The position numbers and the translations under genes are program-made. A DNA stretch of 64,000 nucleotides, from assembly GCF_040530035.1 (NCBI RefSeq), contig NZ_JBEWCD010000002.1, positions 2,897,793 through 2,961,792 of the forward strand. Reading direction: 5' to 3'. Shown in pieces: positions 36,850-52,139 of the stretch (position 1 is the stretch's first letter; each line of letters starts with the position of its first letter). The notes below the pieces were generated by a model. It was not told the DNA's origin. It made no database searches and was given only the letters and a program-made list of their open reading frames with translations. The stretch comes from Roseibium sp. HPY-6 (GTDB lineage: Bacteria; Pseudomonadota; Alphaproteobacteria; Rhizobiales; Stappiaceae).

Positions 36850-37542
36850 ATGGGTTTTTCTCATTGCGGACATTGGAAGATCTTTGTCATTGCGGTCTTC
36901 GGTGTGTTCATGTCCGCTCCGCTCATGGCTGGCGACGGCGGTCTTGCCCCTGGTTTACAAAAAACACCAAACGAGGGAGGCCCCCGGCGCTTCGAGGTCG
37001 CGACCATCAAGGCGGCGCTTCACGAGGCGCCATCGAGCGGTTCAAAACTCATTGATACCGTTGAGCAGGGCACAGTGTTCTTGAACATGGGATGCGATGG
37101 ATCGGCTGACCAGACCTGGTGCGCGGTTCGACCTTTCAGGGGCGGGGCGAAGGGCTACATCAGGTCGAGCGATCTGCAAGCCGCGCGCGGTCCGGACGGC
37201 AACGTCCCGGTGGGCGAAGACACCAGCAAGGGCAGGGCAGGAAAACGGGACTTTGATGCCGAGGTAACAATCGCCTGTGCCCAGGAACGCGGTCAGGCGC
37301 TTGGAACATGCAGCGCGGCCGTTTCACGCGATGTTGGCGGCGATGCGACAATCGTGGTGACATTCGCAAACGGATTTGAACGCAAACTCTATTTTGTTCA
37401 TGGGGAATTCGTGAGAGCCAGTGCGACCATGTCTGGCGTTGGCAGAGACATTGATTGGCGCCTGCAGAACGGTGTCCATATGGTGCGGGTCGACGATCAG
37501 CGTTTTGAACTGCCGGACCCATTCGTCTTTCAAAGGCAGTAG
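36850..37542 (+). CDS. Secreted SH3b-domain-like hypothetical protein
   Basis: A 230-residue protein with a Sec signal peptide (hydrophobic WKIFVIAVFGVFMSAPLMA) and a bacterial SH3-like domain: ATIKAALHEAPSSGSKLIDTVEQGTVFLNMGC, then WCAVRPFRGGAKGYIRSSDL (residues ~53-112). The C-terminal ~100 residues form an unassigned domain with two Cys. SH3b domains bind peptidoglycan or metals. It is likely periplasmic. A GGAGG lies 10 bases upstream of the ATG. Convergent with the sugar dehydrogenase gene. Confidence 0.65.
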   Translation: MGFSHCGHWKIFVIAVFGVFMSAPLMAGDGGLAPGLQKTPNEGGPRRFEVATIKAALHEAPSSGSKLIDTVEQGTVFLNMGCDGSADQTWCAVRPFRGGAKGYIRSSDLQAARGPDGNVPVGEDTSKGRAGKRDFDAEVTIACAQERGQALGTCSAAVSRDVGGDATIVVTFANGFERKLYFVHGEFVRASATMSGVGRDIDWRLQNGVHMVRVDDQRFELPDPFVFQRQ

Positions 37543-37592
37543 TTTTGCGGTACGGCGGCGCCCGTGGGCACCACCGATTGTTGTTGCCAGGT

Positions 37593-38861
37593 TCAGGGTG
37601 TAATCTTGTGGATCATACCTTCGTCAACAGCTGCATAAAGACTGCCGTCGGGTCCCAGCACCAGTGACCGGAACCTGCCGGCCTCCATAGGAAGTGTCAT
37701 TTCGGTGATATCCGTCACCTCTGTTCCGTCTTCGGTAAGCTGCAGGACATCGATACGCTGACCCAGCGGCGTGCCACCGAAACCGATCCCCATGAGGCCA
37801 ACGACCATTGCGCCGTTCCAGTCGCCCCAGGCGTCGCCTTCAAGGAATGCTGCCGAGGATGTACCTTGTGACCAGCCATTGTTATTCCAGATAGGAGGCA
37901 TTGCGCCCGGATAGGTTTCAAAGTCAGTCATCGGCATCCAGGATGCTCGCGCGAACCTGTTTTCGCCAACCATCTGGTTCGGGCTGTATCCGCAATAATC
38001 GTCCGGGCAATCACCGCGTCCGGCCATGTTTGGTCTTGGATCCCAGCCTGCGTTTCCGCCGTTGCGAAGCACGGTGACTTCATCTGAATGCCAGGGGCCG
38101 TGTTCAGCGGCAATCGGGGTGCCTGTTCCTGGATGGAATGCGATACCCTGGACGTTTCTGTGCCCGTAGGTATAGGTCCGCTTGTCGAACCCGACGGGAG
38201 GTGTGTTTTCAGCCGCTGCGGTACCGTCTGTGTCGATACGCAGAACCTTGCTTCCCATCATGGTCGGGCTTTGTGGAACCTGACCGTTATGTGTGTCACC
38301 CGTGGTTAGGTAGAGATAGCCATCGTCAGGATTGAATCGGACCCTTCCGCCATTGTGCGCGCCCGGTCCACCGAACGGATGATCCGATGCCTTCATCTTG
38401 TAAGGCACATCATCGACGATATCCGTGCGGCCTGACACGTTGGAAAAGTCGTCGCTGACCTCAAGCCGCATCAAGCGGTTGGTGTGCGGGTCAGACATGT
38501 TGGACGTGGAATAAACGTATATGCGGCGGTTGTTGGCGAAATTCGGATCAACGGCAACGCCCATCATTCCTGCCTGGCCTTCGCAGAAAAGGTCGTCAGC
38601 GGCAGAGGCGTAGCCCTCAGACCCACCCATGCCGAGAAGTGCCTTGGTTTCACCGGGCGGCAGCAGCACCGAAAGACCTTTGCATTTTTCGGTATAGAAC
38701 ATCGTCCCATCGTCAAGGAACGCCATGTCCCACGGGTTTTCCAGGTCGTCAAGTACAAGCGTATGCTGGAGGCTGGTGGTGTTTTGCGCAAAGACTGGGG
38801 TAGAGATAACTGTAACGCTCATCAGAAGCGCCATAAGACTGGTGACATTCCCAACTATCAT
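37593..38861 (-). CDS. PQQ-type soluble aldose dehydrogenase-like protein
   Basis: A 422-residue periplasmic protein with a Sec signal peptide (LMALLMSVTVISTPVFA) and a GSDH six-bladed beta-propeller: VLDDLENPWDMAFLDDGTMFYTEKC, GQAGMMGVAVDPNFANNRRIYV, HNGGRVRFNPDDGYLYLTTGD, TYGHRNVQGIAFHPGTG, EHGPWHSDEVTVLRNGGNAGWD. The last motifs match the soluble aldose dehydrogenase (Asd/YliI) family with a PQQ and calcium site. It oxidises sugars in the periplasm. Several Cys in the CPDDYCGY region are not usual for E. coli homologues. The start follows GGGAGGAAAC. Confidence 0.82.
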   Translation of the reverse strand: MIVGNVTSLMALLMSVTVISTPVFAQNTTSLQHTLVLDDLENPWDMAFLDDGTMFYTEKCKGLSVLLPPGETKALLGMGGSEGYASAADDLFCEGQAGMMGVAVDPNFANNRRIYVYSTSNMSDPHTNRLMRLEVSDDFSNVSGRTDIVDDVPYKMKASDHPFGGPGAHNGGRVRFNPDDGYLYLTTGDTHNGQVPQSPTMMGSKVLRIDTDGTAAAENTPPVGFDKRTYTYGHRNVQGIAFHPGTGTPIAAEHGPWHSDEVTVLRNGGNAGWDPRPNMAGRGDCPDDYCGYSPNQMVGENRFARASWMPMTDFETYPGAMPPIWNNNGWSQGTSSAAFLEGDAWGDWNGAMVVGLMGIGFGGTPLGQRIDVLQLTEDGTEVTDITEMTLPMEAGRFRSLVLGPDGSLYAAVDEGMIHKITP

Positions 38862-39425
38862 TGTTTCCTCCCATTTATTTGCTTTTGTCCGATGTGATAT
38901 CGCAACGCGTTTGCAGCGTTTCTCAGACGTTAGAGAGGTTAGGCTTTAATTGAAGTTGTATCAAATAAAATTACCCTACGTAAGTAGCGCTTACCAATTG
39001 ACCATTAATTAGTTAATTTCAATTAACTTAGCGATAAATAAAGAAAAGGAAAGTAATGGACTGCATTCTCAAAGCATTGAGTTTCTGTGCAATGCCAGCT
39101 AAGGCGTGCCGACTTCGAAATTTCAGCCTTAAGAGAACAAGATGGCGCGTCGACAAAGTGGATGGGCCGCTACATGGCGAGCTTGGTTGGGGCTGGATGG
39201 CTTATTTTGCGCGGATCGGTGGTCTGTTCCGCTGTTCCTTGTGCATGTGAGGTTTCCTATTGTCGGCGTCTGACGTCGCACGAACGATCCGCAACCGGCC
39301 ACACCGGTGTTTAGCTTGCTGCTGCCAGAACGTCCTTGTGAACGCATCCCAACCGGCTCGCGCTCGAAAAATGAGAGTTGGACGTCAGGCGCTGCCTGAG
39401 TACGCACCCAGGAAGTCTTTAAGGT
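38862..39425. other. AT-rich intergenic region
   Basis: About 560 bases between the sugar dehydrogenase start and the radical SAM gene stop. The first ~200 bases are strongly AT-rich and probably contain the promoter for the dehydrogenase. Short reading frames at 39056-39250 and 39129-39407 have no recognisable family and no good ribosome site. No RNA or repeat was identified. Confidence 0.45.
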
Positions 39426-41177
39426 CTACTTCGCGGCGACAGTTTTTCGAGCGACTTCCGGGGCACCGTGGGTGTTCGGGATTGCTTCCTTGAACACCTG
39501 AATGAGTTCCATTTCCTCTTCTTCCGCGTCGCTGGTCGGCGTCAGGGCAAGGTCGGTGTAAGCCTTTCGGTTTTCATCCGCCAATACGCGCTTTAGCGCC
39601 GGCCTGAATTTCAGGAACAAACGGGCCCAGGAAAAAGCGACGAAAGCGGCTTCGACAGCCCGTTTGGGATAGAAAATGAGCGGATGTTCAAGTTTCATCC
39701 CCGATCTGCGTTGGTTCCGGTGCTTTCGCCGAACGATACCGCATTCAAGCGGATGCACCTTTTCAATAAGGATGGCCCCGAGAAAGTGGATCATTGACGA
39801 ATAGAGTGCCTTGGTGCGCGCACCCCGCGCTGCGTCGCGTCGCAACACCGTTTCCACGTGATCGGGCGTATAAAACTGTCTCCAGCTGTCAAAATAGACC
39901 TGTTCCCACTCCTGTTCCGTCATTTTCGGATGATGTGTGACCCGGTGATTGAGGTCGTATTTGTTGAAATCCGGATCCATCCAGACGCCCTTGGAGGCAA
40001 GTACCTTGTGATCTTCCGAACCGGGAAGGGGCGTCAGAAAGAAGAACTCGATAAGGTCAAGTGGGAGCTCTTTCTTGATGATCTCGATGTTTCGGTGAAT
40101 CTTTTGAGGCGTGTCGTCCGGAAAGCCGAGAATGTAGCCGGCATAGGTTATCACGCCAGCGTCTTTCCAGGCCTGCAGCATCTTGCGGTATTCCCAGATC
40201 TTGTTTTGGCGCTTCTTTGCGGCCGTTAGAGCATCCGGATCTATGTTTTCTAGCCCTATGAATACGCGCGCACATCCGGCACGTGCAGCCTTTTCGATAA
40301 AACCGGGAAGCCGGTAGCAAAGCGTGTCGACCTGCAGCGTGAGTTTGAATTTGAGCCCCTCTTCCTCGCGAAGATAGATCAGCCGGTCGAGAATGATTTC
40401 CCAGTTCTTGTTTCTGGCAAAGTCGTCATCCGTGATGAAAAAGCGCCGGATGTTCTGCGCAGCGTTCGCGCGAATGATCTCCTCAATGTCGTCGGGGGTG
40501 CGGAAGCGGGACTTGCGCCCCTGCACATTGATGATGGTGCAGAAGGAGCATTGGAAGGGGCATCCGCGGCCCGCGTCGAAACTCGTATATGCGCCGGCCA
40601 TTTTCCGCACCGCGTCTGCCGGCAGGATCGGCTGCACCGCGCCTTCGAGATGCGGCAGGTCTTTCATGAAGTTATAGAGTGGTTTCAGCTCGCCGTTCCA
40701 GGCATCGCTCAAGAGAGCATCCATGCGCCCCTCTGCTTCACCCGCGTAAATACTGAGCCCAATTTTCTGGGCATCCAGTATTTCCTGCGGTACGTCAGGC
40801 AGCATCGCGATACTGCCTGCCGCGTGAAATCCGCCCGCTGCTACCGGTATTCCGGCGTCAATGAAGTCTTTTGCAATATCGACTGCGCGGGGGAACTGAT
40901 TGGTCTGGACCCCGACAAGTCCGACGAAGCAGCCGTCGGCTTGCTTCAAATCCCTGATGAGTTTTTTTGTTTCGACTTTTGTATTCGTCTCGTCGATGAC
41001 GTCGATTTCAATTGAAACGTCATGCCCGAGGGTTTTGCGCTCGCTGCAGTCTTTTATCAGGCCGAATACCGAAGCGAGCGAATTGGAAGGGATCGGAGCG
41101 CGCAGCCACTGGATGACATAGCCTTCATCGTCATAGTGCGAGGGCTTGATCAAAAGGACTGCAAAGCGCTTGGACAT
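39426..41177 (-). CDS. B12-binding domain radical SAM protein
   Basis: A 583-residue radical SAM protein. The N-terminal ~180 residues resemble a cobalamin-binding (B12-BD) Rossmann domain (ADGCFVGLVGVQTNQFPRAVD, IPVAAGGFHAAGSIA). The [4Fe-4S] cluster motif CxxxCxxC is GRGCPFQCSFCTII near residue 210, then the VFIGLENIDPDALTAAKKRQNK and ITYAGYILGFPDDTP segments. Such enzymes perform methylations, methylthiolations or lipid changes (HpnP/BchE-like group). The C-terminal ~130 residues are extra and unassigned. Monocistronic by context. Substrate unknown; a link to the RiPP genes downstream is possible but not shown. Confidence 0.82.
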   Translation of the reverse strand: MSKRFAVLLIKPSHYDDEGYVIQWLRAPIPSNSLASVFGLIKDCSERKTLGHDVSIEIDVIDETNTKVETKKLIRDLKQADGCFVGLVGVQTNQFPRAVDIAKDFIDAGIPVAAGGFHAAGSIAMLPDVPQEILDAQKIGLSIYAGEAEGRMDALLSDAWNGELKPLYNFMKDLPHLEGAVQPILPADAVRKMAGAYTSFDAGRGCPFQCSFCTIINVQGRKSRFRTPDDIEEIIRANAAQNIRRFFITDDDFARNKNWEIILDRLIYLREEEGLKFKLTLQVDTLCYRLPGFIEKAARAGCARVFIGLENIDPDALTAAKKRQNKIWEYRKMLQAWKDAGVITYAGYILGFPDDTPQKIHRNIEIIKKELPLDLIEFFFLTPLPGSEDHKVLASKGVWMDPDFNKYDLNHRVTHHPKMTEQEWEQVYFDSWRQFYTPDHVETVLRRDAARGARTKALYSSMIHFLGAILIEKVHPLECGIVRRKHRNQRRSGMKLEHPLIFYPKRAVEAAFVAFSWARLFLKFRPALKRVLADENRKAYTDLALTPTSDAEEEEMELIQVFKEAIPNTHGAPEVARKTVAAK

Positions 41178-41895
41178 ATTTTCCAGGCTCCGTTCTTACG
41201 CGCGTACATAAAGGAGCTTACCGACTTCTCAAGCGGCTACTTTCACGGAATGCATCGGTTACCGCAAGGGAAATTTCGCAGATCGTTTCGATCGTATCGG
41301 CCGAAGTGAACCTTCCCTGGCGGCGATACATCAATCCTGGTCTTGGGTCTTTCGTGTTAGGGCAAAGAATGTAGCCGGTAACTCCGTAACTGCGATTGGA
41401 GAGCGATACGATGGGCATGCATAAATACTTGTGCAGTGCAGTATTTTCGGCACGTTAATTTATCAACATCTTATCAACAATTGCGTAAGTGTCTGTTGAA
41501 AGCTGATGTTTCGACTGGACAGATACCGGCCAAACGAGCACCATAATACCCACTACTGGTTCGGAACCGATGGCGGTTTGGCAACCGCATAACGGCCCGG
41601 AAACCCAGTAGCCCATGCCGGAGCTGGTGAGCGTACCGTCACACGGAAATCGCGACCGGGCCTTCGGGTGCCACATGGGATACGCCGGACGCATTCACGT
41701 GAAGCGAAGGGCGTCCCGGTATTCCGGTGAACGGCGGGTTATCCGTATGATCGGCGCGAGCATGAGATCTTGTGGTTTCTTGGTCGCGGGCTGGAAGTTT
41801 CTTCGGGAGCGACCGGCCGGTGTAAAAGCGGAGAGTGTTGACGCATGGTGGCTGCTCAGCGCCATTCGTCAAAACAAAATCTTCCTTTAACGCAG

Positions 41896-41932
41896 GGGGG
41901 GCGCTGGTTACGGCCAGCGTCCTTTTTCTTTT
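41896..41932 (+). terminator. Orphan rho-independent terminator-like hairpin
   Basis: CGCTGG at 41902-41907 pairs with CCAGCG at 41914-41919 around the loop TTACGG, with additional flanking G/C pairing, followed directly by TCCTTTTTCTTTT. This is a standard plus-strand terminator form. The only frame ending just before it (41890) is not convincing, so it may end a small non-coding transcript. Confidence 0.55.
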
Positions 41933-42126
41933 GTCAGCCAAAAGAGACACATCTGTCGTCAGCGGCATGCATTGCGCGAACAGCCTGCGCCAAACATGCC
42001 TCGACACTTAAGCTGGGGCGCATGCGCCGACATTCAAAGCTGCAAAAAACTTTTCTGGGGATTGGTTTGACGCCAATGGAGAATTTACGTTCCAGGGTAT
42101 CTGGCGACACCAGACATCTACACCCG

Positions 42127-42162
42127 GAAAAACCGGTCCGCTTCGCGCGAACCGGTGTTTTG
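42127..42162 (-). terminator. Terminator-like hairpin downstream of the small CxxC gene
   Basis: ACCGGT at 42132-42137 and ACCGGT at 42151-42156 form a hairpin with extra G/C pairs in the loop arms. On the minus strand it is followed by TTTTT. It lies about 30 bases after the stop of the small gene at 42193, so it probably ends that transcript. On the plus strand it is followed by GTTTTGG. Confidence 0.55.
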
Positions 42163-42192
42163 GGTCTGTGATATTAAGGGCCTGCGCGGCGC

Positions 42193-42441
42193 TTAGGACT
42201 TTCTTTGCTCAGCGTTTGGCTGGCCCACCATAAGCGGTGTGATCTTCGTTTTGAGAATCATGTCCAGTTCCTCAGACCCATCCTCAAGCGACTGCAAGGC
42301 CATGTCGAGGCAATAGGAGCAGAAGGTGCGACCGTCCTTGTCGGCCTCTTTCTTTGTGTAGCGGATCATTCTTTTGATCGCTTCGACCGCAGGTTCCTGC
42401 TCAATTGCAGTGCGATCTGACTTACTGACTGTCTTTGACAT
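42193..42441 (-). CDS. Small CxxC hypothetical protein
   Basis: An 82-residue-class protein starting MSKTVSKSDRTAIEQEPAVEAIKRMIRYT, with a FCSYCLDMALQSLEDG motif (CxxC near residue 40) that may bind zinc or a redox centre. No family is recognised. The ATG at 42441 follows GGTGGG; an upstream in-frame start at 42495 would add 18 residues. It is divergent from the BTAD regulator gene, with about 180 bases between starts, and could be a small regulator or accessory of the RiPP locus. Confidence 0.5.
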   Translation of the reverse strand: MSKTVSKSDRTAIEQEPAVEAIKRMIRYTKKEADKDGRTFCSYCLDMALQSLEDGSEELDMILKTKITPLMVGQPNAEQRKS

Positions 42442-42621
42442 TATACTACCCACCAGTATTCGATTTTCCATTTGCAGCGAAGCTGCCGTAACCATCCACA
42501 GGAAGCATGCTGTTGCAGCGTGATATTAGCGTGATAAAGTATTGTTGTATATCGGGTTGTGTGGCATTGGCTTTTGCGTTTCTAAGCTACGGTAAACGTG
42601 TGGTTCAAATACGGGGAATTG

Positions 42622-44616
42622 ATGGCAGACGCGTACTGCTTCGCATGTCTTGGTCGCCCGTTACTCCTGGGCGAAAATGGTGAGCCCGTCGCGGTAAAAA
42701 CCCGTAAAGCCCTGGCAATTATGGGTTATTTGAGCCGCATCAACTCCATGAACTCGCCGAGGGAGAAGCTCGCGGATCTGTTGTGGAGCGGTGCTGAGAG
42801 ACCCAAGGCGATGCAGTCGCTGCGCCAGGCGTTGCGCCAACTCAAGACCGCGGAAGAAGAGGCGGGTGTTGACGCTGTCCAATCGTCAAGTGGCGACGTC
42901 AGGCTCGATCCGGAATCGTTTTCTTCGGACCTGGCTGCTTTGTTGCGGTTGCTCGAACGAGGTCAGACGGAAGATTTCCAGGAGGCCGTAGAGCTTTGGC
43001 GGGGAGACTTTCTCGCTGGTTTTGAAGACATTGATTCCGAGTTCTCCGACTGGCTACAGGTTGAGCGCGAGCGTGTGCGTTCTGAAGTCGCGACGGCAAC
43101 TTTCAGGCACCTCAATCAGATCTCAACAGCTGACGGCGGTTTGAATGCCGAGGCGGGCGCGCGATTTTTGTTGAAGGTGGATCCGGCTCTAGAAGCGGCG
43201 CACCGGGTCTTGATCAAGCTCTACCTCAAGCTTGGTCAACGTGAGCGCGCGGAGCAGCAGCTCAAAGCCTGCGAACGCGAAATGAAACTGCACCTGGATG
43301 CGGCCCCGGACCAGGAAACGGTCGCGTTGCTGATCGATGCAAATGAGAAAAAAAGTTTTTTGCAAGAACCAAGGCGACCGGGAGATGTTGCTCCGGCCAT
43401 TGCAAATCACCCTGTTTCATCCAAGGTCATTCAATTACCGTCGATATCGATCATATCGGCGTCCCTGGCAATGGCTGGCGGCAACGACGCGATACACCTG
43501 AGAGAGGAAATCGTTTCTGGATTGTCATCCTTCCGCTCGTTCGATCTTTATCAATCCGAGTATTTCGGCGAAGAAAACGCACCTGATGCTACGTTGATCG
43601 AGGGTTACGAACTTGGCAGCTATCTGCTGAGGTTCAGGCATGATGAGCGATCCAACAAAGTCGTCGTGCAATTCGAAGATCGCGCAACCGGCCAGATTGT
43701 ATTTAATGAGATCGTTGATCTGACGCTCTGGGACGGCGTGTTTCAGGCAGCAAGCCATATTGTCAGTCGGATACACTCACATTCAATATCCAGACTTCAA
43801 AACCCGGCGAACACATCGGTATTTGCCAGATGGTGCCAGGCGGAAGCGCTTTTGTGGGATTTCACGCCGCAATCTGACGAAAAAGCGATGAGGCTCCTGA
43901 ACGAGTTGGAACAAACAAACAGCTCATTTTCCAGGACTTATGCAGGAAAGGCCTCCATCGTCATGAAGCGCGAATTGCATTATCCGCTTCACGACAACAA
44001 TTTCAATCTGGACATGAATAGTCCTTTGAACCTTGCCGAAAAAGCGATCATGCTCGACCCTTGGCAAGCGGTGAACCTTCGTGTTTATGGCTGGGCATCC
44101 ATTTTGGCCAACATGCCGGACGAAGCGAAGAGAGCCTTTCAGAACGCGAGCAGATTAAGTTCTGCTGACCCTGCAAATCTGATGTCTGTTGCTGAAGGCC
44201 TGGCATTTTCTGGAGATGTTGCAGAGGCGCGGGCGATTGCGGACCGTGCGTTCTCGCTGTGTGCGTTTGTTCCGCGTGTCTTTTACGAGTATTTGGCAAA
44301 CATTTCTTTTGCTGCCGAAGACTATGAGGGTGCCATCAGACAAATTGAACGCAGTGCTGGGAATAGCGTGAGCGGACTAACGACACGAGTCGCAGCGTTG
44401 ATTTGTTCCGACCGTGAAGATGAGGCAAATCAGATACTTCAGCGATACGGTGACCATCGATCGGCGCTTTTGAAGAACTCTCCCGTCGGCACGGACAACC
44501 TCGATCTTTGGAGGACGAAGATCAACTTTTTCCAGAACACCAGGATCCGAGCGAACTTCGATAGGGGGGCAGAGGTTGTTCAAAGGTTCCTGGCGGGTGG
44601 CTCGCGCTCAGTTTAG
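42622..44616 (+). CDS. SARP/BTAD-like transcriptional regulator
   Basis: A 664-residue multidomain protein. Residues ~1-95 resemble the OmpR-type winged HTH of SARP regulators (CLGRPLLLGENGEPVAVKTRKALAIMGYL, REKLADLLWSGAE, KAMQSLRQALRQLK). Residues ~95-250 form a BTAD domain (DLAALLRLLERG, EAVELWRGDFLAGFE, RVLIKLYLKLGQRERAEQQLKACE). The C-terminal ~370 residues contain a TolB-like segment and TPR-like repeats (FARWCQAEALLWDF, LAEKAIMLDPWQAVNLRVY, AKRAFQNASRLSSADPANL). Lone SARPs often activate natural-product genes. The ATG at 42622 follows CGGGGAA; GTG at 42598 is possible. Its 3' end overlaps the convergent precursor gene by 9 bases. Confidence 0.75.
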   Translation: MADAYCFACLGRPLLLGENGEPVAVKTRKALAIMGYLSRINSMNSPREKLADLLWSGAERPKAMQSLRQALRQLKTAEEEAGVDAVQSSSGDVRLDPESFSSDLAALLRLLERGQTEDFQEAVELWRGDFLAGFEDIDSEFSDWLQVERERVRSEVATATFRHLNQISTADGGLNAEAGARFLLKVDPALEAAHRVLIKLYLKLGQRERAEQQLKACEREMKLHLDAAPDQETVALLIDANEKKSFLQEPRRPGDVAPAIANHPVSSKVIQLPSISIISASLAMAGGNDAIHLREEIVSGLSSFRSFDLYQSEYFGEENAPDATLIEGYELGSYLLRFRHDERSNKVVVQFEDRATGQIVFNEIVDLTLWDGVFQAASHIVSRIHSHSISRLQNPANTSVFARWCQAEALLWDFTPQSDEKAMRLLNELEQTNSSFSRTYAGKASIVMKRELHYPLHDNNFNLDMNSPLNLAEKAIMLDPWQAVNLRVYGWASILANMPDEAKRAFQNASRLSSADPANLMSVAEGLAFSGDVAEARAIADRAFSLCAFVPRVFYEYLANISFAAEDYEGAIRQIERSAGNSVSGLTTRVAALICSDREDEANQILQRYGDHRSALLKNSPVGTDNLDLWRTKINFFQNTRIRANFDRGAEVVQRFLAGGSRSV

Positions 44617-44895
44617 TGCAAATGTTTGCGTCAGACTAGACAAGTATTCCGGATTACCATCCTGAATTTTTTTGTCATTTAACTTAAACGGAACAGCAAC
44701 TGCTCGCGGAAATTTTGAGCGATCGACTATTTTGAATTCGATCAGGTCTACAGTTTGTTGTGGAAGATTGATTGAAGCTAGAGTTTTTGCTGGGTTGTTA
44801 CGAAATTCACTCAAGAAATTTTTATCTTCTGCCGCTTTTGCAATCAATTTACCGAGCGATTTGATGTTGTGTTGATGGTAGGGAAATCTTGCCAT
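44608..44895 (-). CDS. Candidate RiPP precursor with NHLP-type leader, no Cys (precursor 2)
   Basis: A 95-residue protein. The N-terminal part SLGKLIAKAAEDKNFLSEFR, NNPAKTLASINLPQQTVDLIEFKIVDR has the helix-plus-beta pattern of nitrile-hydratase-like leader peptides (NHLP). The C-terminal ~35 residues, ending NPEYLSSLTQTFALN, would be the core; it has Ser86, Ser87, Thr89, Thr91 but no Cys. The ATG at 44895 follows GGAGACTG. It lies 71 bases downstream of precursor 1 on the same strand, so they probably share a transcript. Its tail overlaps the regulator gene on the other strand. Not a working nitrile hydratase subunit: far too short. Confidence 0.6.
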   Translation of the reverse strand: MARFPYHQHNIKSLGKLIAKAAEDKNFLSEFRNNPAKTLASINLPQQTVDLIEFKIVDRSKFPRAVAVPFKLNDKKIQDGNPEYLSSLTQTFALN

Positions 44896-44966
44896 TTCTT
44901 GCAGTCTCCGAGTTTGCGTCCGAGTGGCAGAACCACTCGGACGAATATTGAACAATCGCAATCAGA

Positions 44967-45257
44967 TCATTCGGGCACGTCTTCGTAGAGGCAGTTACCC
45001 AGTGCAGCCCGGCCGAGTTCTTCGAAATAGGTCTCGTCGTCCGCAGCTACACGATCCTTGTCCACTTCTGCAGGTACGATGATGTGCACGAGGTCAGCGG
45101 TATCGGCAAAAATCTTCACGTCCGAAGAAACGCCGAGTTCGCCTAAAATGTCTGCTGGGTTCTCGATCAGTTCTTCTCGGGTGTCGCGGTCTTGAATGAT
45201 CGCGCCAAGTTTTGCACCGATTTCCAATTGGGTTTTTGAAGTCATTTTTGCGTGCAT
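44967..45257 (-). CDS. Candidate RiPP precursor with NHLP-type leader and one C-terminal Cys (precursor 1)
   Basis: A 96-residue protein with the NHLP leader pattern: LEIGAKLGAIIQDRDTREEL, IENPADILGELGVSSDVKIFADTADLVHIIVP, then an acidic spacer and the tail LGRAALGNCLYEDVPE. The single Cys89 lies 7 residues from the C-terminus, and LG/AALG-type sequences before it could serve as a protease site. The ATG at 45257 follows GAGG; other in-frame ATGs (45269, 45245) are possible. It is divergent from the YcaO gene. A YcaO cyclodehydratase would convert such a Cys (or Ser/Thr) to an azoline; this is inference. Confidence 0.65.
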   Translation of the reverse strand: MHAKMTSKTQLEIGAKLGAIIQDRDTREELIENPADILGELGVSSDVKIFADTADLVHIIVPAEVDKDRVAADDETYFEELGRAALGNCLYEDVPE

Positions 45258-45442
45258 AGTGAGCCTCATGAAGTTTAAGTTGAACTTTGACTTGGCGGGT
45301 GATTGGATGGTCACATGGCCAACCCGAAATAAGTCAAACATTAGTAAAATGTTGTTATCGTTCTATTTTTACTATTGTTCGACTGCTTTCGAGAAAAATA
45401 TAAGACGATAAAAAAATATTGCTCAATAGCGGTTTCTTACTT

Positions 45443-45463
45443 TTACAATTGCCACAATTGTAA
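45443..45463. promoter_or_regulatory. Perfect 9-bp inverted repeat upstream of the YcaO gene
   Basis: TTACAATTG and CAATTGTAA are exact inverted repeats separated by CCA (21 bases in all). The site lies 67 bases before the YcaO ATG, in an AT-rich divergent promoter region between precursor 1 and ycaO. It is not followed by a T-tract on either side that would make it a clear terminator, so an operator is favoured. The cognate regulator could be the SARP-like protein (inferred). Confidence 0.55.
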
Positions 45464-45530
45464 GGGGAGGCTTGTATTTCACGGATACTTCGGTTGAGTT
45501 TGATTTACTGGGCAGCGAAGGTGGTTGAGC

Positions 45531-46916
45531 ATGCGCACCGAAATGATTGATGTGTCGAAGATGTCCGCAGCGTTGCGTGCTGATCTCATGCGGCTTGGGC
45601 TGATGCAGCCCGTAAAAAAGAACGCTGCACCGGATACCTGTGAAGCCCACATTGACCTCTGTTTGTTTCTGCCTTTGCTGTCCGACCATGACATCCGCCT
45701 GGTACCCATGGTCCGCGACGGATGCCCCGTTCAGTTTTGTACCGGTACTTTGAAAATCAATATCGCCGGCGACTGGCGTGCCGGGAGAAATGCGAACGTA
45801 ATTCCAGCGGGCGGGCAGGCGGATACATTAAGATCTGCAGCTTTTGGTTGTTTAGGTGAACTAGCTGAGCGATTGAGTCTTTGTCGTGCCGGAGAAGACG
45901 ATCAGAGGATCGTGGTGCGACAGGAATTGCTACCAGAAGTAGAGATTGCAAATCTACTCGGGCTAAGTGAAACTCAAAGCAGGAGAGCGGCGCGGCGCTT
46001 GGCTGATGGTGGTAAAAAACTGGATGCGAAAACTCCAGATTGGGGGTGCGTGTCAGAAAGCCACGTGGTTCTGCGGCGCCTTCAAGGGGAAGAGGTTGTG
46101 CAATGTCCGAGTTTCGGCATTTTGTTTCGCGACTTGGACCTGGGTAAGGGGCAGGAATTTGGATTTGCGTCCACCGTTGGATGCGCGGTCTGGCATAGTC
46201 ATGAGGGTGCGAGGCGCCGTGCGTTGCTTGAACTGGTCGAGCGTGATGCAGTCGGTCAAGCATGGTACAACCGCTTGGGGATAACTCATATACCTCGCGA
46301 GTTCGTGGATCCGGTCTTGGGTGAGGTTCTTTGTGGTTTTCTGGATGGAGAAGACCGCGAATGGCGGCTTTTTTCAGTTGATACCGATTTCGAAGTGCAT
46401 GTCGTTATCGCGATATCGTATGAACCTGATGGGAAAATGTGTGCCTTTGGATCCGCCGCCGGTTTGAATATGCCGGCAGCTTGCAACGCGGCGGTAGAGG
46501 AAATGTTGCAATCCGAAAATGCGCTCGTGCTTATGGATAGGGCCTATCCTGTTGATACGGGAGCAACAACTTCTGCGACCAACATCCCCCGCCAGCTCGC
46601 CTATGCACGGCAAAAGTCAATCTTGGACGACTTGCCTATAAGAACCGCGGCAACTTCTCATCCCGCGCGGCATGATGCCTGTTTCACGCACGAAGACCTT
46701 CTAAGAAGCTGCATGGATCAGAATATAGAAATATGGGAATTTGACGCGACACGCGCCGATCTGAACATTCCGTGCGTCAAGCTCATTTCGAAAGACCTGT
46801 GCAGCTGGGAACCGCGTTTCGGCAAGAAGCGCCTTTATGACGGTGTCGTCAGAAGGGGGTTGCGGCGCGCGCCAGGGACGGAAGACGAGTTCCAAAAGCG
46901 TCCGTTTCCGTTTTAG
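45531..46916 (+). CDS. YcaO-domain protein (azole/amidine-forming cyclodehydratase candidate)
   Basis: A 461-residue YcaO-family protein. ATP-binding motifs are visible: SAAFGCLGELAERLSL (S..E..ER type), RALLELVERDAVGQAWY, and AAVEEMLQSENALVLM. The very C-terminus KRPFPF* is a proline-containing tail like the PxPxP ending of TOMM cyclodehydratases. The ~90-residue N-terminal part is unassigned. In TOMM biosynthesis YcaO activates peptide carbonyl oxygens with ATP, usually with an E1-like or RRE partner, neither of which is seen within this locus. The ATG at 45531 follows GAAGGTGG. It is divergent from the two precursor genes. Confidence 0.8.
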   Translation: MRTEMIDVSKMSAALRADLMRLGLMQPVKKNAAPDTCEAHIDLCLFLPLLSDHDIRLVPMVRDGCPVQFCTGTLKINIAGDWRAGRNANVIPAGGQADTLRSAAFGCLGELAERLSLCRAGEDDQRIVVRQELLPEVEIANLLGLSETQSRRAARRLADGGKKLDAKTPDWGCVSESHVVLRRLQGEEVVQCPSFGILFRDLDLGKGQEFGFASTVGCAVWHSHEGARRRALLELVERDAVGQAWYNRLGITHIPREFVDPVLGEVLCGFLDGEDREWRLFSVDTDFEVHVVIAISYEPDGKMCAFGSAAGLNMPAACNAAVEEMLQSENALVLMDRAYPVDTGATTSATNIPRQLAYARQKSILDDLPIRTAATSHPARHDACFTHEDLLRSCMDQNIEIWEFDATRADLNIPCVKLISKDLCSWEPRFGKKRLYDGVVRRGLRRAPGTEDEFQKRPFPF

Positions 46917-47062
46917 ACATAGGTAAAGCCGTGATTCGACGGCGCAGTTTGCCCGAACGTCAAAAAACGGCTGCGGCACTCGGGACCCGGGGCGTCTATC
47001 TCCGGATATATTTTGTTGTGCCCAATCTCTGGACAAACCGGCAGGTCACGCCCGTCCCAATT

Positions 47063-47611
47063 CTATTGGAGAACCGGACGCCCGTCCTCTTTTGGCCGCG
47101 CAAGTGTCATGACCCAGAAATTCCGCCACGTTCCGGTGTTGCGATTTGTCCGGGCGATACCCACACGGGTGACATACGGATTGAGTAGGTTTTTGTTGTG
47201 CCCTTCCGAACCCTGCCAGCCTTTGAATGCGGCTGGCAGGTCCGCGTAACCCGCACCGAGATTTTCTGCACCGGCATAATTCGTGTAGCTGGCCTTGCTG
47301 AGCCGTTGGGACAGTCCGAAGGCACTGTGCTGCCAGGTATCCATGCTGTCCCGCTCTGCAATGTGGCGCGCCATTTTTTGCGAAACATCGTCAAGTGCCG
47401 GATCGTGTTTCAGGGCCGGAAGTCCGTTTTGCCTCCGGTAGGAATTGATGAGTGACAGGAGCTGGCTTTTGTCGACCGTTTGATCCGAAAGAACGGTTTT
47501 GTCCTCAAGATCACTGTTGCCCGGCAAAACGCTACAGCCGGCAACCAGTGCCATGCTGAAAAGCAACAGCACGAATTTAAGGTGACTGAAGTGCCTTTGG
47601 ACAAACTGCAT
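47063..47611 (-). CDS. CAP-domain (SCP/PR1-like) lipoprotein
   Basis: A 182-residue protein with a lipoprotein signal peptide ending LVAGCS (Cys26). Residues ~50-180 form a CAP domain: LLSLINSYRRQNGLPALKHDPALDDVSQKMARHIAERDSM (positions ~51-90), WQHSAFGLSQRL, GAENLGAGYADLPAAFKGWQGSEGHNKNLLNPYVTRVGIA (positions ~118-157). The conserved His, Glu and His residues of CAP proteins are visible (AENLG, EGHNKNLL). The start codon overlaps the stop of the phosphodiesterase gene (TAATG), so they are coupled. The function of bacterial CAP lipoproteins is largely unknown. Confidence 0.82.
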   Translation of the reverse strand: MQFVQRHFSHLKFVLLLFSMALVAGCSVLPGNSDLEDKTVLSDQTVDKSQLLSLINSYRRQNGLPALKHDPALDDVSQKMARHIAERDSMDTWQHSAFGLSQRLSKASYTNYAGAENLGAGYADLPAAFKGWQGSEGHNKNLLNPYVTRVGIARTNRNTGTWRNFWVMTLARPKEDGRPVLQ

Positions 47612-48447
47612 TAGGTTTCATCTCCCGGCCACGTCACGCCCGGATCTGCAAAGAAGTGATAGGGACCCGGGTAGCTTTCGACATAAGCCATGTGAGTCAC
47701 CAGGCCGGTTTTCCGAGTGTGGTGGTGCACGAAAAATGCCGGTGGTTCGAAATTGAACATGGCCGGGCCGTCTTCTGCGAGATCGAGCTGGACCTGATGG
47801 CCTGTACTTGGCGCGAGTGTCATGATTTTATTTGCAAAACTTGCAATGATCGGCCGGTGGATGTGACCGCAGAGGATCCTCTCGACATGATCGTGCCGGG
47901 ACAGGATTTCTTCCAGTTCGGGTGCATCCGTCAGCCCCATCATGTCCATATGTACGATACCGGAAAGTGCCGGCGGGTGATGGAGCGCGATCATGGTAGG
48001 CGCATCGGTCTCCTGCAGTGTCTTGTCGAGCCATGACAATTGCTCTGCCCCAAGCTTCCCCTCCGGACTGCCGGGCAAGTGCGAATCGAGAGCGATGAGG
48101 GCGACGTCGCCGATCATCTTCATGTAATAGATCTTGTCGGTCGCACTGTCACAAATTCCGGGGAATTCTTTCATCTCCTGGCGCATGCCCGAGCTGCTGT
48201 CATGATTTCCGGGCATAAGAAACACCGGTACGTCGATGCGCGACAGCAGGTCTCTCGCGACCGCATATTCCCGAGGGTCGCTGCGATCGGTCAAATCGCC
48301 CGTAACCACGACGGCGTCAATTTTGGGGGTAAACGCGAGCAGTGAGCGCACAGCGCGTTCTGCAAGCATGTTGGTATCGGACACCCGATAGCAGGCAAGA
48401 CCTTTCGGTCGAAGGTGCAAATCTGTTATCTGCGCAATAAGGGTCAT
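47611..48447 (-). CDS. Metallophosphoesterase (CpdA/GpdQ-like phosphodiesterase)
   Basis: A 278-residue calcineurin-like phosphodiesterase. The five metal motifs are visible: QITDLHLRP, VVTGDLTD, MPGNHDSS, ALHHPPALSG and CGHIHRPI. The spacing matches class III cyclic-nucleotide phosphodiesterases (CpdA) and glycerophosphodiester GpdQ enzymes. Cytoplasmic; no signal peptide. Coupled to the CAP lipoprotein gene downstream by a one-base overlap. cAMP hydrolysis is possible but not proven. Confidence 0.85.
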   Translation of the reverse strand: MTLIAQITDLHLRPKGLACYRVSDTNMLAERAVRSLLAFTPKIDAVVVTGDLTDRSDPREYAVARDLLSRIDVPVFLMPGNHDSSSGMRQEMKEFPGICDSATDKIYYMKMIGDVALIALDSHLPGSPEGKLGAEQLSWLDKTLQETDAPTMIALHHPPALSGIVHMDMMGLTDAPELEEILSRHDHVERILCGHIHRPIIASFANKIMTLAPSTGHQVQLDLAEDGPAMFNFEPPAFFVHHHTRKTGLVTHMAYVESYPGPYHFFADPGVTWPGDET

Positions 48448-48614
48448 TTGAAATCCTGAAGACTCAGCGAACCATTCCAGTTAAGGACGATAGCCAAGCG
48501 CTTCACGAGGGCAAGCACTTGTTTCCCTTTTTCGAACTCTCATGTAGGAGAGGTTTCCGGGCGGTGGCGAACACCAAGCTGCATTTCGGCGGCGGAGGTT
48601 GGAAACGGCATTAG

Positions 48615-50489
48615 ATGGCAGAAAAGAGTGATACCCAAAAGCTTCAGGGCGACGCGGCCGAGGATCAGTCCGTCGCGCACGAGGCCCGAGAAGCCGAAGA
48701 TGCCGGCAGAGAAGGCCCGGAAGGAACAGCGGCAGACAGCGCCGCGACGGAAACACAACCTGCCAGCATTCGAAAGCCTGTCTGGCTCAGAGTTTTCGGC
48801 CACGACGTTACCGCACCGTTCTTGCTGCTTTTCTTGTCGCTTCTGCTGTTTGTTCCGGGGCAATGGACCGTACCACCGCTGGATCGGGACGAACCCCGCT
48901 ATACCCAGGCGACAAAACAGATGCTGGAAACCGGTGACTATGTCGACATTCGGTTTCAAGATCAGGCCCGGCACAAAAAGCCGGTTGGAATCTACTGGCT
49001 ACAAGCTGCCGCGGTAAAGCTGACCGGAAATGGCGTCGATGCACCGTTGTGGGTGTATCGCTTGCCCTCAATTATCGGAGCAACGCTGAGCGTGTTGGCC
49101 AGCTTCTGGATGGCGCGCGCTTTCCTTGGACCTGCAGGTGCGCTTCTTGTGGGCGGCTTTGTGTCGCTTGCCATCATTGTCGGGGTCGAGGCGCGTCTTG
49201 CAAAAACGGACGCCATGCTGTTTGCAACGGTTGTCATTGCACAAGGTGCTCTGGCGCGCATCTGGCTCAGGGATGCCGGAGAACGCATCTGGGGGCTCAG
49301 TTTCCTGTTTTGGACTGCACTGGCCGCAGGCGTATTGATCAAGGGACCGGTTGGACTGATGGTCGTTGGTCTGACTGTAGCCGGCCTCATGATCCTGAAG
49401 CGGCAGGTCCGCTGGTTCAAGGCGGCGGCTCCGGTTATCGGAATTGTCTGGCTGCTGCTGTTGGTATCTCCATGGTTTGTCGCCATCTGGATCGCAACCG
49501 ACGGCACATTCTTCACCGAGGCCATAGGCCGGGATTTCTTGGGGAAAGTCGGGCAGGGCCAGGAAGGGCACGGAGCGCCGCCGTTAACGCATCTGGGAGC
49601 CATGTTCGGCATATTCTGGCCTTTGCCTGCGTTTTTCCTGATCGCGTTGCCCTTGATCTGGAAAGAGCGCGCAAGTCCGCTTGTGACTTTCGCGATTGCC
49701 TGGTTCGTCCCGACCTGGGTCGTTTTCGAACTCGTGGCGACGAAGCTGCCACACTACACGTTGCCCATATTGCCGGCGCTTGCGTTACCTGTCGCCGCAG
49801 CGCTCCTGGAAGGAGCTGGCGAGCAGACCGGAAAATGGATGAAGCGTCTGGCGGCGGTTTTGCTGGCGCTGCCACCCGTTGGTTTGGCAGCGGTCGCCTT
49901 CGCCGGCCCATTCGTGCTCGGCATCTGGCCATCGCCGCCTGGGGTTGTCATCGTCGCGATTGGCGGAGTTTTCGGGATAGCTGCAGCCTCAAGATTGTTC
50001 CGTGGACCGGCGCTCTATGCCTTTCCGGCCACATCATTGAGCGCGGTTTGCGTCGCGATTGGCATCTGGGGCTTCGTCGGCCCGGCACTCACGCCTATCT
50101 GGGTAAGTCCGCGGCTGGTAGCTGCGCTCGATGAAGTTCCCGGTTGCCAGAGCGGTGCGACGCGGCAAGTTGTCACTTCCGGATTTCACGAACCGAGTTT
50201 CATATTCCTGGAGGGAACGGGAACACGTATCGTCTCACCGAAAGACGCCGCCGAGTTTCTGGCTCAAAAGGACGCTCAGAGCGAGGGTACTTGCCGCGTC
50301 GCCGCCATAGAAAGCCGGGAAGAAGCCGCGTTTTTGACGTCCGCCAAGGAGTTTGGTCTTGTGCCGGTGGTCAGAAAAAGGGTAGACGGCCTCAATATTA
50401 ATGGCGGCGACAACGTCGACATTGCTCTTTACCAGAATGACAGTGCGGCAAAAGGTGCAGAAAGCGGAAATGACGAAGAGCAGCAATAA
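48615..50489 (+). CDS. GT39-family glycosyltransferase (ArnT/PMT-like)
   Basis: A 624-residue integral membrane GT-C enzyme. An acidic, disordered N-terminal ~55 residues precedes LLLFLSLLLFVPGQWTVPPLD. The catalytic loop after the first membrane segment reads DRDEPRYTQATKQMLETGDYV, with the conserved acidic residues of the ArnT/PMT family, and KKPVGIYWLQAAAVKL follows. Many hydrophobic segments make up the rest, with a periplasmic C-terminal domain. Such enzymes transfer a sugar from an undecaprenyl-phosphate donor to lipid A or other acceptors. The downstream phosphatase, GT2 and LAB_N genes overlap or follow closely and support an envelope-lipid modification operon. Confidence 0.82.
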   Translation: MAEKSDTQKLQGDAAEDQSVAHEAREAEDAGREGPEGTAADSAATETQPASIRKPVWLRVFGHDVTAPFLLLFLSLLLFVPGQWTVPPLDRDEPRYTQATKQMLETGDYVDIRFQDQARHKKPVGIYWLQAAAVKLTGNGVDAPLWVYRLPSIIGATLSVLASFWMARAFLGPAGALLVGGFVSLAIIVGVEARLAKTDAMLFATVVIAQGALARIWLRDAGERIWGLSFLFWTALAAGVLIKGPVGLMVVGLTVAGLMILKRQVRWFKAAAPVIGIVWLLLLVSPWFVAIWIATDGTFFTEAIGRDFLGKVGQGQEGHGAPPLTHLGAMFGIFWPLPAFFLIALPLIWKERASPLVTFAIAWFVPTWVVFELVATKLPHYTLPILPALALPVAAALLEGAGEQTGKWMKRLAAVLLALPPVGLAAVAFAGPFVLGIWPSPPGVVIVAIGGVFGIAAASRLFRGPALYAFPATSLSAVCVAIGIWGFVGPALTPIWVSPRLVAALDEVPGCQSGATRQVVTSGFHEPSFIFLEGTGTRIVSPKDAAEFLAQKDAQSEGTCRVAAIESREEAAFLTSAKEFGLVPVVRKRVDGLNINGGDNVDIALYQNDSAAKGAESGNDEEQQ

Positions 50490-51381
50490 TGTCTGGCGGA
50501 TACTTGCGCGTATGCGCGGCAATATCCGGCGGGCTCAAATGCTGTTCAAGGGCCGCAAGGAGAGGGCGCGCGACAGCCTCGATCCCCTGTCGCCGGGTCA
50601 AAGGCCGCAGGACATACTGGCTGTCTTGCTGTTGACGGTCGGTGTTGCAGTCGTTGTTTTCGACGTCCCGACATATCCGTGGCTGCGTTCACTTCCGGGC
50701 GAGTACCGGAATGCGTTTCGGGCTTTCACCGATTTCGGCAAGGCGGACTGGATCTTGCTGTCAACGGGTTTGACATGCTTGTTTCTTCTCGCACTTGACG
50801 CGGGCCGTTATGCGTTCCGCATCCGCATGGCGATAGGCTCGGTATTCACATATGCAACCTTTATCTTCTATTCCGTGGCAGCCACCGGCCTGATCGCGAT
50901 TGCTTTCAAGTGGTCGCTCGGGCGTGCCCGTCCGAAGCTTTACGAACAGGTTGGCCCGGTTCGCTTTGACTTTCTGGCATTCGACGGAACGTACACGAGC
51001 TTTCCCTCCGGACATTCGACGACGGTCGCAGCACTGGCGACCGCACTTGCCTTTATCTTTCCGTCCTATCGCTGGCTCATTATTGTCGCCGCCTTTTGGG
51101 TGGCATTCAGCCGCGTTATGGTCGGTGCGCATTACCCGAGCGATGTCATTGCCGGAACGCTGCTCGGCATGACGTTCACTTTCTTCACGGTCAGGGCGAT
51201 GGCGCGGCGCCGGATCGGTTTCCATCTTTCACCGTCAGGTAAAATCGAGCCGAATATGAACGTTCGTTCTGCGAAAGCCTGTGTGCGTGCGGTTTGGCAG
51301 GCTCTTCGAGGTCAACGCGGCGTCAACCGCGTACCGAACGAGCGGGCACGCACGGAAGATACAGAACGGACGGTTTCATGA
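50470..51381 (+). CDS. PAP2-family phosphatase
   Basis: A 303-residue membrane phosphatase. Signature motifs are KWSLGRARPKLYE, SFPSGHSTTVAALATAL and SRVMVGAHYPSDVIAGTLLG, the three conserved parts of the PAP2 site (Lys/Arg, SGH, SRxxxxxHxxxD). It probably removes phosphate from undecaprenyl-PP or lipid A on the periplasmic side. The ATG at 50470 overlaps the GT39 gene by 20 bases. Its 3' end overlaps the GT2 start (ATGA). Confidence 0.85.
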   Translation: MTKSSNNVWRILARMRGNIRRAQMLFKGRKERARDSLDPLSPGQRPQDILAVLLLTVGVAVVVFDVPTYPWLRSLPGEYRNAFRAFTDFGKADWILLSTGLTCLFLLALDAGRYAFRIRMAIGSVFTYATFIFYSVAATGLIAIAFKWSLGRARPKLYEQVGPVRFDFLAFDGTYTSFPSGHSTTVAALATALAFIFPSYRWLIIVAAFWVAFSRVMVGAHYPSDVIAGTLLGMTFTFFTVRAMARRRIGFHLSPSGKIEPNMNVRSAKACVRAVWQALRGQRGVNRVPNERARTEDTERTVS

Positions 51382-52139
51382 CGAAGAGCTTTCTTGAGCA
51401 CGTTGCGACCGACAAGGGTGCGCTGGCTGTGACGGTTGTCGTCCCGGCCAAGGACGAGGCCGAGAACCTGCCTATCCTTCTCGATGAGATCGAGGCCGCT
51501 CTGCAGGCAAGAGCGTTCGAGGTCATTGTGGTCGACGATGGCTCGACGGACGGAACAGACATTGTTCTTCAGGATTATGCCGCCACGCACGATTGGCTGA
51601 GGCCGGTCCGTCACGAGAAATCATGTGGGCAAAGCTGCGCCGTCAGAACCGGTTTGCAGCATGCACGCGGCGATGTCGTTGCCACGATTGACGGTGATGG
51701 TGAAAACAATCCGGCCTATATTCCCAAGCTTCTGGATGCGCTCGAAGCTGCCGGCCCTGCAACCGCGCTTGCCGCGGGTCAAAGGTTGGGACGAAAGGCG
51801 AGCCTGGCGAAGAGATACGCATCTAGATTTGCCAACAAGCTCCGCGGCGCGATTTTGAAGGATAAAACACGTGACAGCGGCTGCGGCCTGAAAGCGCTCA
51901 GGAGAGAGATCTTTCTGCAACTGCCTTATTTCGACAGCTGGCATCGTTTTTTGCCAGCTCTCGTGATCAGGGAAGGTTTCGACGTCGTTCATATTGATGT
52001 TCAGGACCGGCAACGACGGCATGGCACGTCGAAATACGGAATTTTTGACCGCGCGCTCGTCGGCGTGTTGGATTTGTTCGGTGTGTGGTGGCTTCGCCGC
52101 CGGCGCAAAAAAATTCCCACTGTCCGGCCTTTGACCTAA
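51378..52139 (+). CDS. GT2 glycosyltransferase (dolichol-phosphate-mannose synthase-like)
   Basis: A 253-residue GT-A enzyme. N-terminal TVVVPAKDEAENLPILLDEIE, the VIVVDDGSTDGT motif, and ATIDGDGENNPAYIPKLL with the DxD-like sequence define the DPM1/ArnC family. GQRLGRKASLAKRYASRFAN and DSGCGLKALRREIF follow. The C-terminal RRHGTSKYGIFDRALVGVLDLF is a membrane-association helix segment typical of polyprenyl-phosphate sugar synthases. It would make the sugar donor used by the GT39 enzyme. The ATG at 51378 overlaps the PAP2 stop. Confidence 0.86.
   Translation: MTKSFLEHVATDKGALAVTVVVPAKDEAENLPILLDEIEAALQARAFEVIVVDDGSTDGTDIVLQDYAATHDWLRPVRHEKSCGQSCAVRTGLQHARGDVVATIDGDGENNPAYIPKLLDALEAAGPATALAAGQRLGRKASLAKRYASRFANKLRGAILKDKTRDSGCGLKALRREIFLQLPYFDSWHRFLPALVIREGFDVVHIDVQDRQRRHGTSKYGIFDRALVGVLDLFGVWWLRRRRKKIPTVRPLT

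Follow-up and report, generated by a model that had tools for sequence, protein, structure and literature searches.

A compact YcaO cassette with a candidate single-cysteine precursor in Roseibium

Leaders derived from nitrile hydratase have been described together with YcaO enzymes in several bacterial systems. The nitrile hydratase-related leader peptide (NHLP) clusters of the thiazole/oxazole-modified microcin (TOMM) type reported by Haft et al. 2010 (PMC2887384) join these two parts, and the available sections of that paper also give a precedent, from Azospirillum, for NHLPs with an unfused YcaO nearby. In the mpr system (MprC, MprE1-10), the accessible part of PMC12455567 describes a YcaO cyclodehydratase, a folded NHLP-type leader with an L(X)4L motif and a lone Cys that can be modified; the same part states that L(X)4L matters for PatE/LynD and MprE7/MprC binding. 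Here we analyze a stretch of 64,000 nucleotides (the window) from Roseibium sp. HPY-6, a genome of 7.03 Mb whose nearest named relatives are Roseibium/Labrenzia. The window holds a four-gene unit, all between 42598 and 46916, consisting of a Streptomyces antibiotic regulatory protein (SARP)/BTAD-type regulator on the plus strand, two small proteins, N1 and N2, on the minus strand, and a YcaO protein on the plus strand. Judged from its sequence, the cassette resembles known peptide-modification systems and appears to be without parts that they normally need.

We consider it somewhat probable that the unit is a self-contained cassette for a ribosomally synthesized and post-translationally modified peptide (RiPP), in which YcaO makes Cys89 of N2 a thiazoline and N1 acts as a helper. 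The features are as follows.

42622 to 44616, plus strand: SARP/BTAD-type regulator with a TPR-like C-terminal part (PF03704); reading frame open from GTG 42598
44608 to 44895, minus strand: N1, nitrile-hydratase-like small protein of 95 residues, Cys-poor paralogue of N2 and its probable partner (TIGR03793, 1v29)
44967 to 45257, minus strand: N2, putative nitrile-hydratase-like precursor of 96 residues, L(X)4L-xx-Cys89 followed by a 7-residue tail (TIGR03793, 8tb1)
44991 to 44993, minus strand: codon of Cys89, the proposed modification site, from conservation in homologues and as read in the sequence
45326 to 45348, minus strand: promoter/operator motif TTTACTANNGTTYGACTNNTTTC, copy oriented to N2-N1
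45368 to 45390, plus strand: inverted copy of TTTACTANNGTTYGACTNNTTTC, oriented to YcaO
45531 to 46916, plus strand: standalone YcaO of the cyclodehydratase type, 461 residues, C-terminal RPFPF, without the RiPP recognition element (RRE)/docking half
42193 to 42495, minus strand, start about 42441 (42193 to 42441): S0, short conserved protein with no Pfam match over cut-off

An earlier note on this DNA had named a regulator converging on two small minus-strand proteins and a YcaO divergent from them, and Pfam and TIGRFAM models recover every one of these genes in that arrangement, down to the 9 bp shared by the 3' ends of the regulator and N1. YcaO starts at ATG 45531, not TTG 45525, and N1 at 44895 (M[A/P]RFP in relatives); for the regulator, ATG 42622 is possible besides GTG 42598. 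The N2 start is most likely 45257, with GAGG upstream in the window and GGAGG in many relatives, and it is preferred because the listed ATG 45341 falls within the promoter motif. N2 and N1 presumably form one operon.

In an alignment of 121 rows, made of the N2 of the window and the best 120 of 159 homologues (one being the window's own protein), the single Cys that had been noticed in one small protein, Cys89, is invariant, as are Tyr77, Gly82 and Leu86; Tyr91 is kept in 120 rows, and the Cys is eighth from the C-terminus in 109. The pattern [LI]xxxxLxxC with a tail of 4-9 residues, which places the Cys two residues past L(X)4L, fits N2 in 47/47 cassette loci, and 45 of the 47 have exactly one Cys per N2. 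Mean entropy is 1.79 bits for residues 1-49, 0.67 for 50-66, 1.19 for 67-76, 0.66 for 77-91 and 1.34 for 92-96. Over the core (87-96) it averages 1.23 bits, with Cys89 at 0, Tyr91 at 0.07 and Pro95 at 0.21, and with residues 88 and 90 variable (2.27 and 2.54); the N2 core is not hypervariable, whereas published NHLP cores are. A hairpin is possible in the N2 5' leader (45258-45323, minus strand), with weak support: RNAalifold predicts none there, and the hand-drawn helix has 70.3% of cells paired against a shuffled mean of 65.1.

Two equivalent precursors with NHLP leaders had been proposed, and this reading stands in part. Both proteins match the NHLP leader model TIGR03793 (N2, E 4.8e-5, 23.1 bits; N1, E 2.8e-4, 20.7 bits), and their profiles match nitrile hydratase 1v29 (N2, E 0.012; N1 against the alpha chain, E 4.2e-5) as well as, for N2, the MprE7 NHLP structure 8tb1 (E 0.0061). 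Because both score below the curated TIGR03793 cut-off of 50.9, N2 and N1 are remote NHLP relatives, assigned by distant homology only; the N2 of the window has no Gly-Gly cleavage motif before the core. The equivalence of the two is not supported. N1 is homologous to N2 (hhalign 99.1%), but it has no Cys at all in 34/47 loci, and the four Ser/Thr of its tail, which had been pointed out earlier, are not conserved: no Ser/Thr/Cys column is, the best reaching 20/48. N1 is probably a partner protein rather than a second substrate.

The enzyme matches PF02624 (E 3.4e-32) and TIGR03604 (E 4.7e-25, yet below the model cut-off), and it resembles the azoline-forming cyclodehydratases LynD, TruD, MusD and McbD. 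Its closest solved relatives are LynD, TruD and MusD, the first two outscoring the third. It aligns with the C-terminal cyclodehydratase half of LynD/TruD, Pro-rich end included, and LynD residues ~1-300 (RRE and docking) have no counterpart. Its Glu motifs, once called ATP-grasp-like, we take to be those of the YcaO fold. The second YcaO of the genome (L073, G000:C1:1911091-1912008) adjoins TfuA (PF07812, E 1.3e-40) and likely forms a thioamidation pair with it, and one of two C39-peptidase matches in the genome lies ~25 kb from this pair; no TfuA is present in the cassette. Considering that the small proteins do match an NHLP model, that this YcaO resembles azoline-forming cyclodehydratases, and that the other YcaO is separate and TfuA-paired, the view of a compact YcaO/NHLP-like locus of the RiPP type is upheld, and placement of the enzyme in a non-RiPP clade is not.

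The genes recur together more often than chance allows. A YcaO search gave a match in 68/151 genomes of relatives (own included), and the cassette is present in 42/45 genomes of the same genus. Sixty stretches were examined, of which 59 matched a query protein, the 60th being the TfuA-paired YcaO. All five genes of the span, S0 included, occur together in 47/59 loci (41 within the genus and 6 in other genera of its family), and these, chosen for holding all five, are the 47 cassette loci; order and orientation were scored identical in 46, the exception, L063, being an overlong reading-frame start. Of the other 12 loci, ten are more distant YcaO loci, and L066 and L067 are deeper relatives with a regulator, one N2-like protein and YcaO. 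Searched against 385 genomes across the class, the N2 profile gave a clear match in the genome of the window and weak ones in four others (E 1.6e-6 to 6.9e-6); the match in G344 is nitrile hydratase alpha itself, and those in G409 are two small NHLP-like frames. The cassette is fast-evolving, yet parts of N2 stay fixed: median identity to the window is 40.0% for N1, 46.6% for YcaO, 56.2% for N2 and 58.9% for the regulator, compared with 67.9-83.6% for the neighbors CAP, MPE, GT39, PAP2 and GT2 and 76.8% for S0. Orphan N2-N1 pairs, with no YcaO in the examined stretch, were seen at L187 (6001-6770), with a nitrile hydratase alpha gene 3.4 kb away, and at L188 (5962-6668).

The regulator matches PF03704 (BTAD, E 2e-8); Trans_reg_C has no match in it and a weak one in L066. 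It stands beside YcaO in the 47 cassette loci, in the two nearest outgroup loci and in twelve loci of a sister clade described below. Between the divergent N2 and YcaO lies an inverted pair of the 23-bp motif TTTACTANNGTTYGACTNNTTTC, for which the chance expectation in the window is a mean of 0.01. The pattern was derived from the window and 19 relatives, so the exact matches in the window arise by construction; the evidence lies in the pattern being unique and fixed in position. The rest of the genome has two sites at 3 mismatches and none with fewer, where a reversed control gives 3; remote genes under the motif were accordingly dropped. Among 48 loci, the plus copy is found with at most 5 mismatches in 23 and the minus copy in 24; both are present with at most 6 mismatches in 22, and in 21 of these the two positions are unchanged. 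As for the orphan pairs, the motif was absent upstream at L187 and gave one distant 5-mismatch site at L188. The palindrome TTACAATTGCCACAATTGTAA at 45443-45463, a perfect 9-bp dyad with a 3-bp spacer, was set aside, being absent from 49 other intergenic regions examined.

We propose the following mechanism. The SARP-like regulator may bind TTTACTANNGTTYGACTNNTTTC and, through its inverted copies, activate two divergent promoters, one driving the N2-N1 operon and the other YcaO. N2 would be the substrate, with a nitrile-hydratase-like leader and a final helix whose L(X)4L presents the lone Cys, followed by the 7-residue tail. With ATP, YcaO would activate the peptide carbonyl preceding Cys89 and close a thiazoline, with a loss of 18 Da. 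Because the RRE/docking half of LynD is missing, YcaO would have to bind the leader otherwise than LynD does, and the likely helper is N1, which accompanies N2 throughout the clade. The product, once released, may be one conserved scaffold of the genus rather than a diversifying bacteriocin, since residues 88 and 90 vary and Cys89, Tyr91 and Pro95 hardly do.

Several observations weigh against this proposal. Neither an E1/ocin-ThiF protein or fused docking partner nor an RRE is found in the cassette, whereas azoline-forming YcaOs in the literature consulted use an E1 or RRE. The earlier note had seen none nearby, and this now extends to the genome: PF05402 has 0 matches genome-wide, although divergent RREs can escape it, and TIGR03882 likewise has 0, but control genomes also fall under its cut-off, and the separate-gene model TIGR03603 was not searched genome-wide. 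No dehydrogenase, protease or exporter adjoins the cassette genes. The last five residues of N2 (92-96) are less conserved than the preceding helix, the AlphaFold model of N2 is middling (predicted local distance difference test score 72, predicted template modeling score 0.39), and Foldseek matched no solved structure to it. No N1 was found by blastp in the outgroups L066 and L067, and N1 is thus dispensable in part of the clade; in G038, a genome of the same genus without YcaO, the flanks are present and the regulator alone is retained. In 26/48 loci the two copies of TTTACTANNGTTYGACTNNTTTC are not both recognizable, and shuffled sequence, over 20 tries, averages 7.3-8.8 mismatches and comes down to 4-8 at best.

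Other explanations draw on the same facts. YcaO may act on N2 without making an azoline, by forming an amidine or thioamide or by ATP-activated hydrolysis that trims the C-terminal tail as MusD does; MusD is reported to cleave a C-terminal sequence using ATP in the portion available of a review (PMC10885120). The place of MusD among the three closest solved relatives, the missing protease and the near-constant length of the tail past Cys89 speak for this, but the conserved nucleophile favors cyclization, LynD and TruD score above MusD, and no TfuA adjoins this YcaO, unlike the other one in the genome; we regard the alternative as unlikely. It is still less likely that N2 and N1 are a nitrile-hydratase-like regulatory or metal-handling pair, with YcaO modifying something else or the N2 Cys serving as a metal ligand. 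Such a pair would agree with the orphan N2-N1 genes at L187 and L188, one of them near nitrile hydratase alpha, with the core that is not hypervariable and with the sub-threshold leader scores. However, both orphan-pair genomes hold the cassette elsewhere (L186 and L180, contigs of L050 and L070), so YcaO could act there in trans; moreover, two genomes lack all four genes, L(X)4L-xx-C is present in every cassette locus, and the outgroups retain an N2-like protein and YcaO without N1. Finally, N1, or N1 together with N2, could be the real substrate, with Ser/Thr azolines in the tail. N1 evolves faster than any other protein of the block, as a variable core would; against this, its tail has no conserved Ser/Thr/Cys column and no N1 was found in L066 and L067, and we find this very improbable.

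The limits of the unit follow from its surroundings. The span first reported began at 42193 and took in S0. G015 and G016, of the same genus and without YcaO, have S0 and CAP flanking an interval without any of the four genes; because these two and G038 keep S0/flanks without the cassette or with the regulator alone, S0 is a neighbor and the unit is regulator-N1-N2-YcaO, which rules S0 out as a fifth gene. Neighbors shared across the 47 loci are a CAP-domain gene (47), GT39, PAP2 and GT2 (45 each) and a phosphoesterase (43). A radical SAM gene at 39426-41177 was rejected as a tailoring enzyme, being present in 5/47 loci only, though 43/47 stretches cover its place. Rfam at gathering cut-offs gave no match in 37000-52000, phage and defense libraries gave none at 1e-3, and a plasmid comparison returned one weak record.

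A sister clade of the enzyme has a different partner. Twelve loci (L069, L074-L079, L081, L082, L119, L121 and L125) hold YcaO, SARP and a convergent precursor, picked by a pattern requiring a near-terminal Cys; a thirteenth precursor (L080, no SARP) was found by profile. The near-terminal Cys is therefore partly by construction, although the L080 precursor has it too. R121, Tyr125 and Cys130 occur in 13/13, and [DE]YT in 12, L080 reading DYV; the precursors typically end in RVADYTI-x-V-C plus 0-2 residues. A haem-peroxidase-like protein of the animal type is found in 9/12 of these stretches and at L080, and not in the stretches of L075, L076 and L078; PF03098 is over cut-off in 9/10 of these proteins, with L074 below. 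L121 (6513-8165) also has a vanadium-chloroperoxidase-like protein (PF17897, PAP2) near the DYTxxxC precursor, YcaO and haem peroxidase. At L118 (6075-9578) and L120 (2722-6281), a precursor ending in SCASC or CCAAC is divergent from a YcaO, after which comes a haem-peroxidase-like gene; a regulator of the TPR type is close by, with a cyclase domain in L118. A haem peroxidase as the missing partner of our cassette was rejected, PF03098 having no match in the genome of the window.

The cassette, with its four genes, is of a size that allows reconstruction in E. coli, so it is testable whether a YcaO cyclodehydratase recognizes a folded leader without an RRE and whether a leader paralogue can substitute for it. 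A core that is conserved instead of variable would point to a dedicated molecule, be it a signal, a cofactor or one that handles metals, in bacteria that are reported from corals and algae. From one or two members scanned, the sister clade points to precursors unnamed by the family models searched. The database names "YcaO-like" and "NHLP leader peptide family natural product" indicate that both ends of the cassette already carry labels from annotation pipelines. The open-access literature searched gave no paper joining Roseibium and YcaO and nothing joining YcaO, heme peroxidase and RiPP; in one paper with Labrenzia and YcaO the words are unrelated in the text available. Streptamidine (PMC8442711), nostatin (PMC11583998) and PMC12636437 came up in the same literature. 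A tentative and somewhat doubtful suggestion is that the cassette represents a RiPP branch of its own. Its YcaO, having no RRE/docking half, would rely on N1 acting in trans and form a single conserved thiazoline in a genus-level molecule, and the haem-peroxidase loci, with their near-terminal Cys, would be a second branch of the same SARP-linked YcaO lineage.

Compared with the clusters of Haft et al., which in the sections available have hypervariable cores, fused cyclodehydratase-docking proteins in the examples given and, in Azospirillum, also LanM, the cassette shares the nitrile-hydratase-derived leader and YcaO and differs in its conserved core and standalone enzyme. The mpr system, so far as the accessible part of its report extends, has ten precursors, an oxidase, MprD, and an RRE within MprC, whereas the locus here has one Cys-bearing precursor, a Cys-poor paralogue, a linked regulator, no RRE found and no adjoining dehydrogenase. 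The sister clade has a related YcaO with SARP and a near-terminal-Cys precursor, as here, but this precursor is not detectably homologous to N2 (hhalign 0.2%, which also disposed of it as an NHLP) and its partner is haem-peroxidase-like. With LynD, TruD and MusD, the YcaO of the cassette has the C-terminal half in common.

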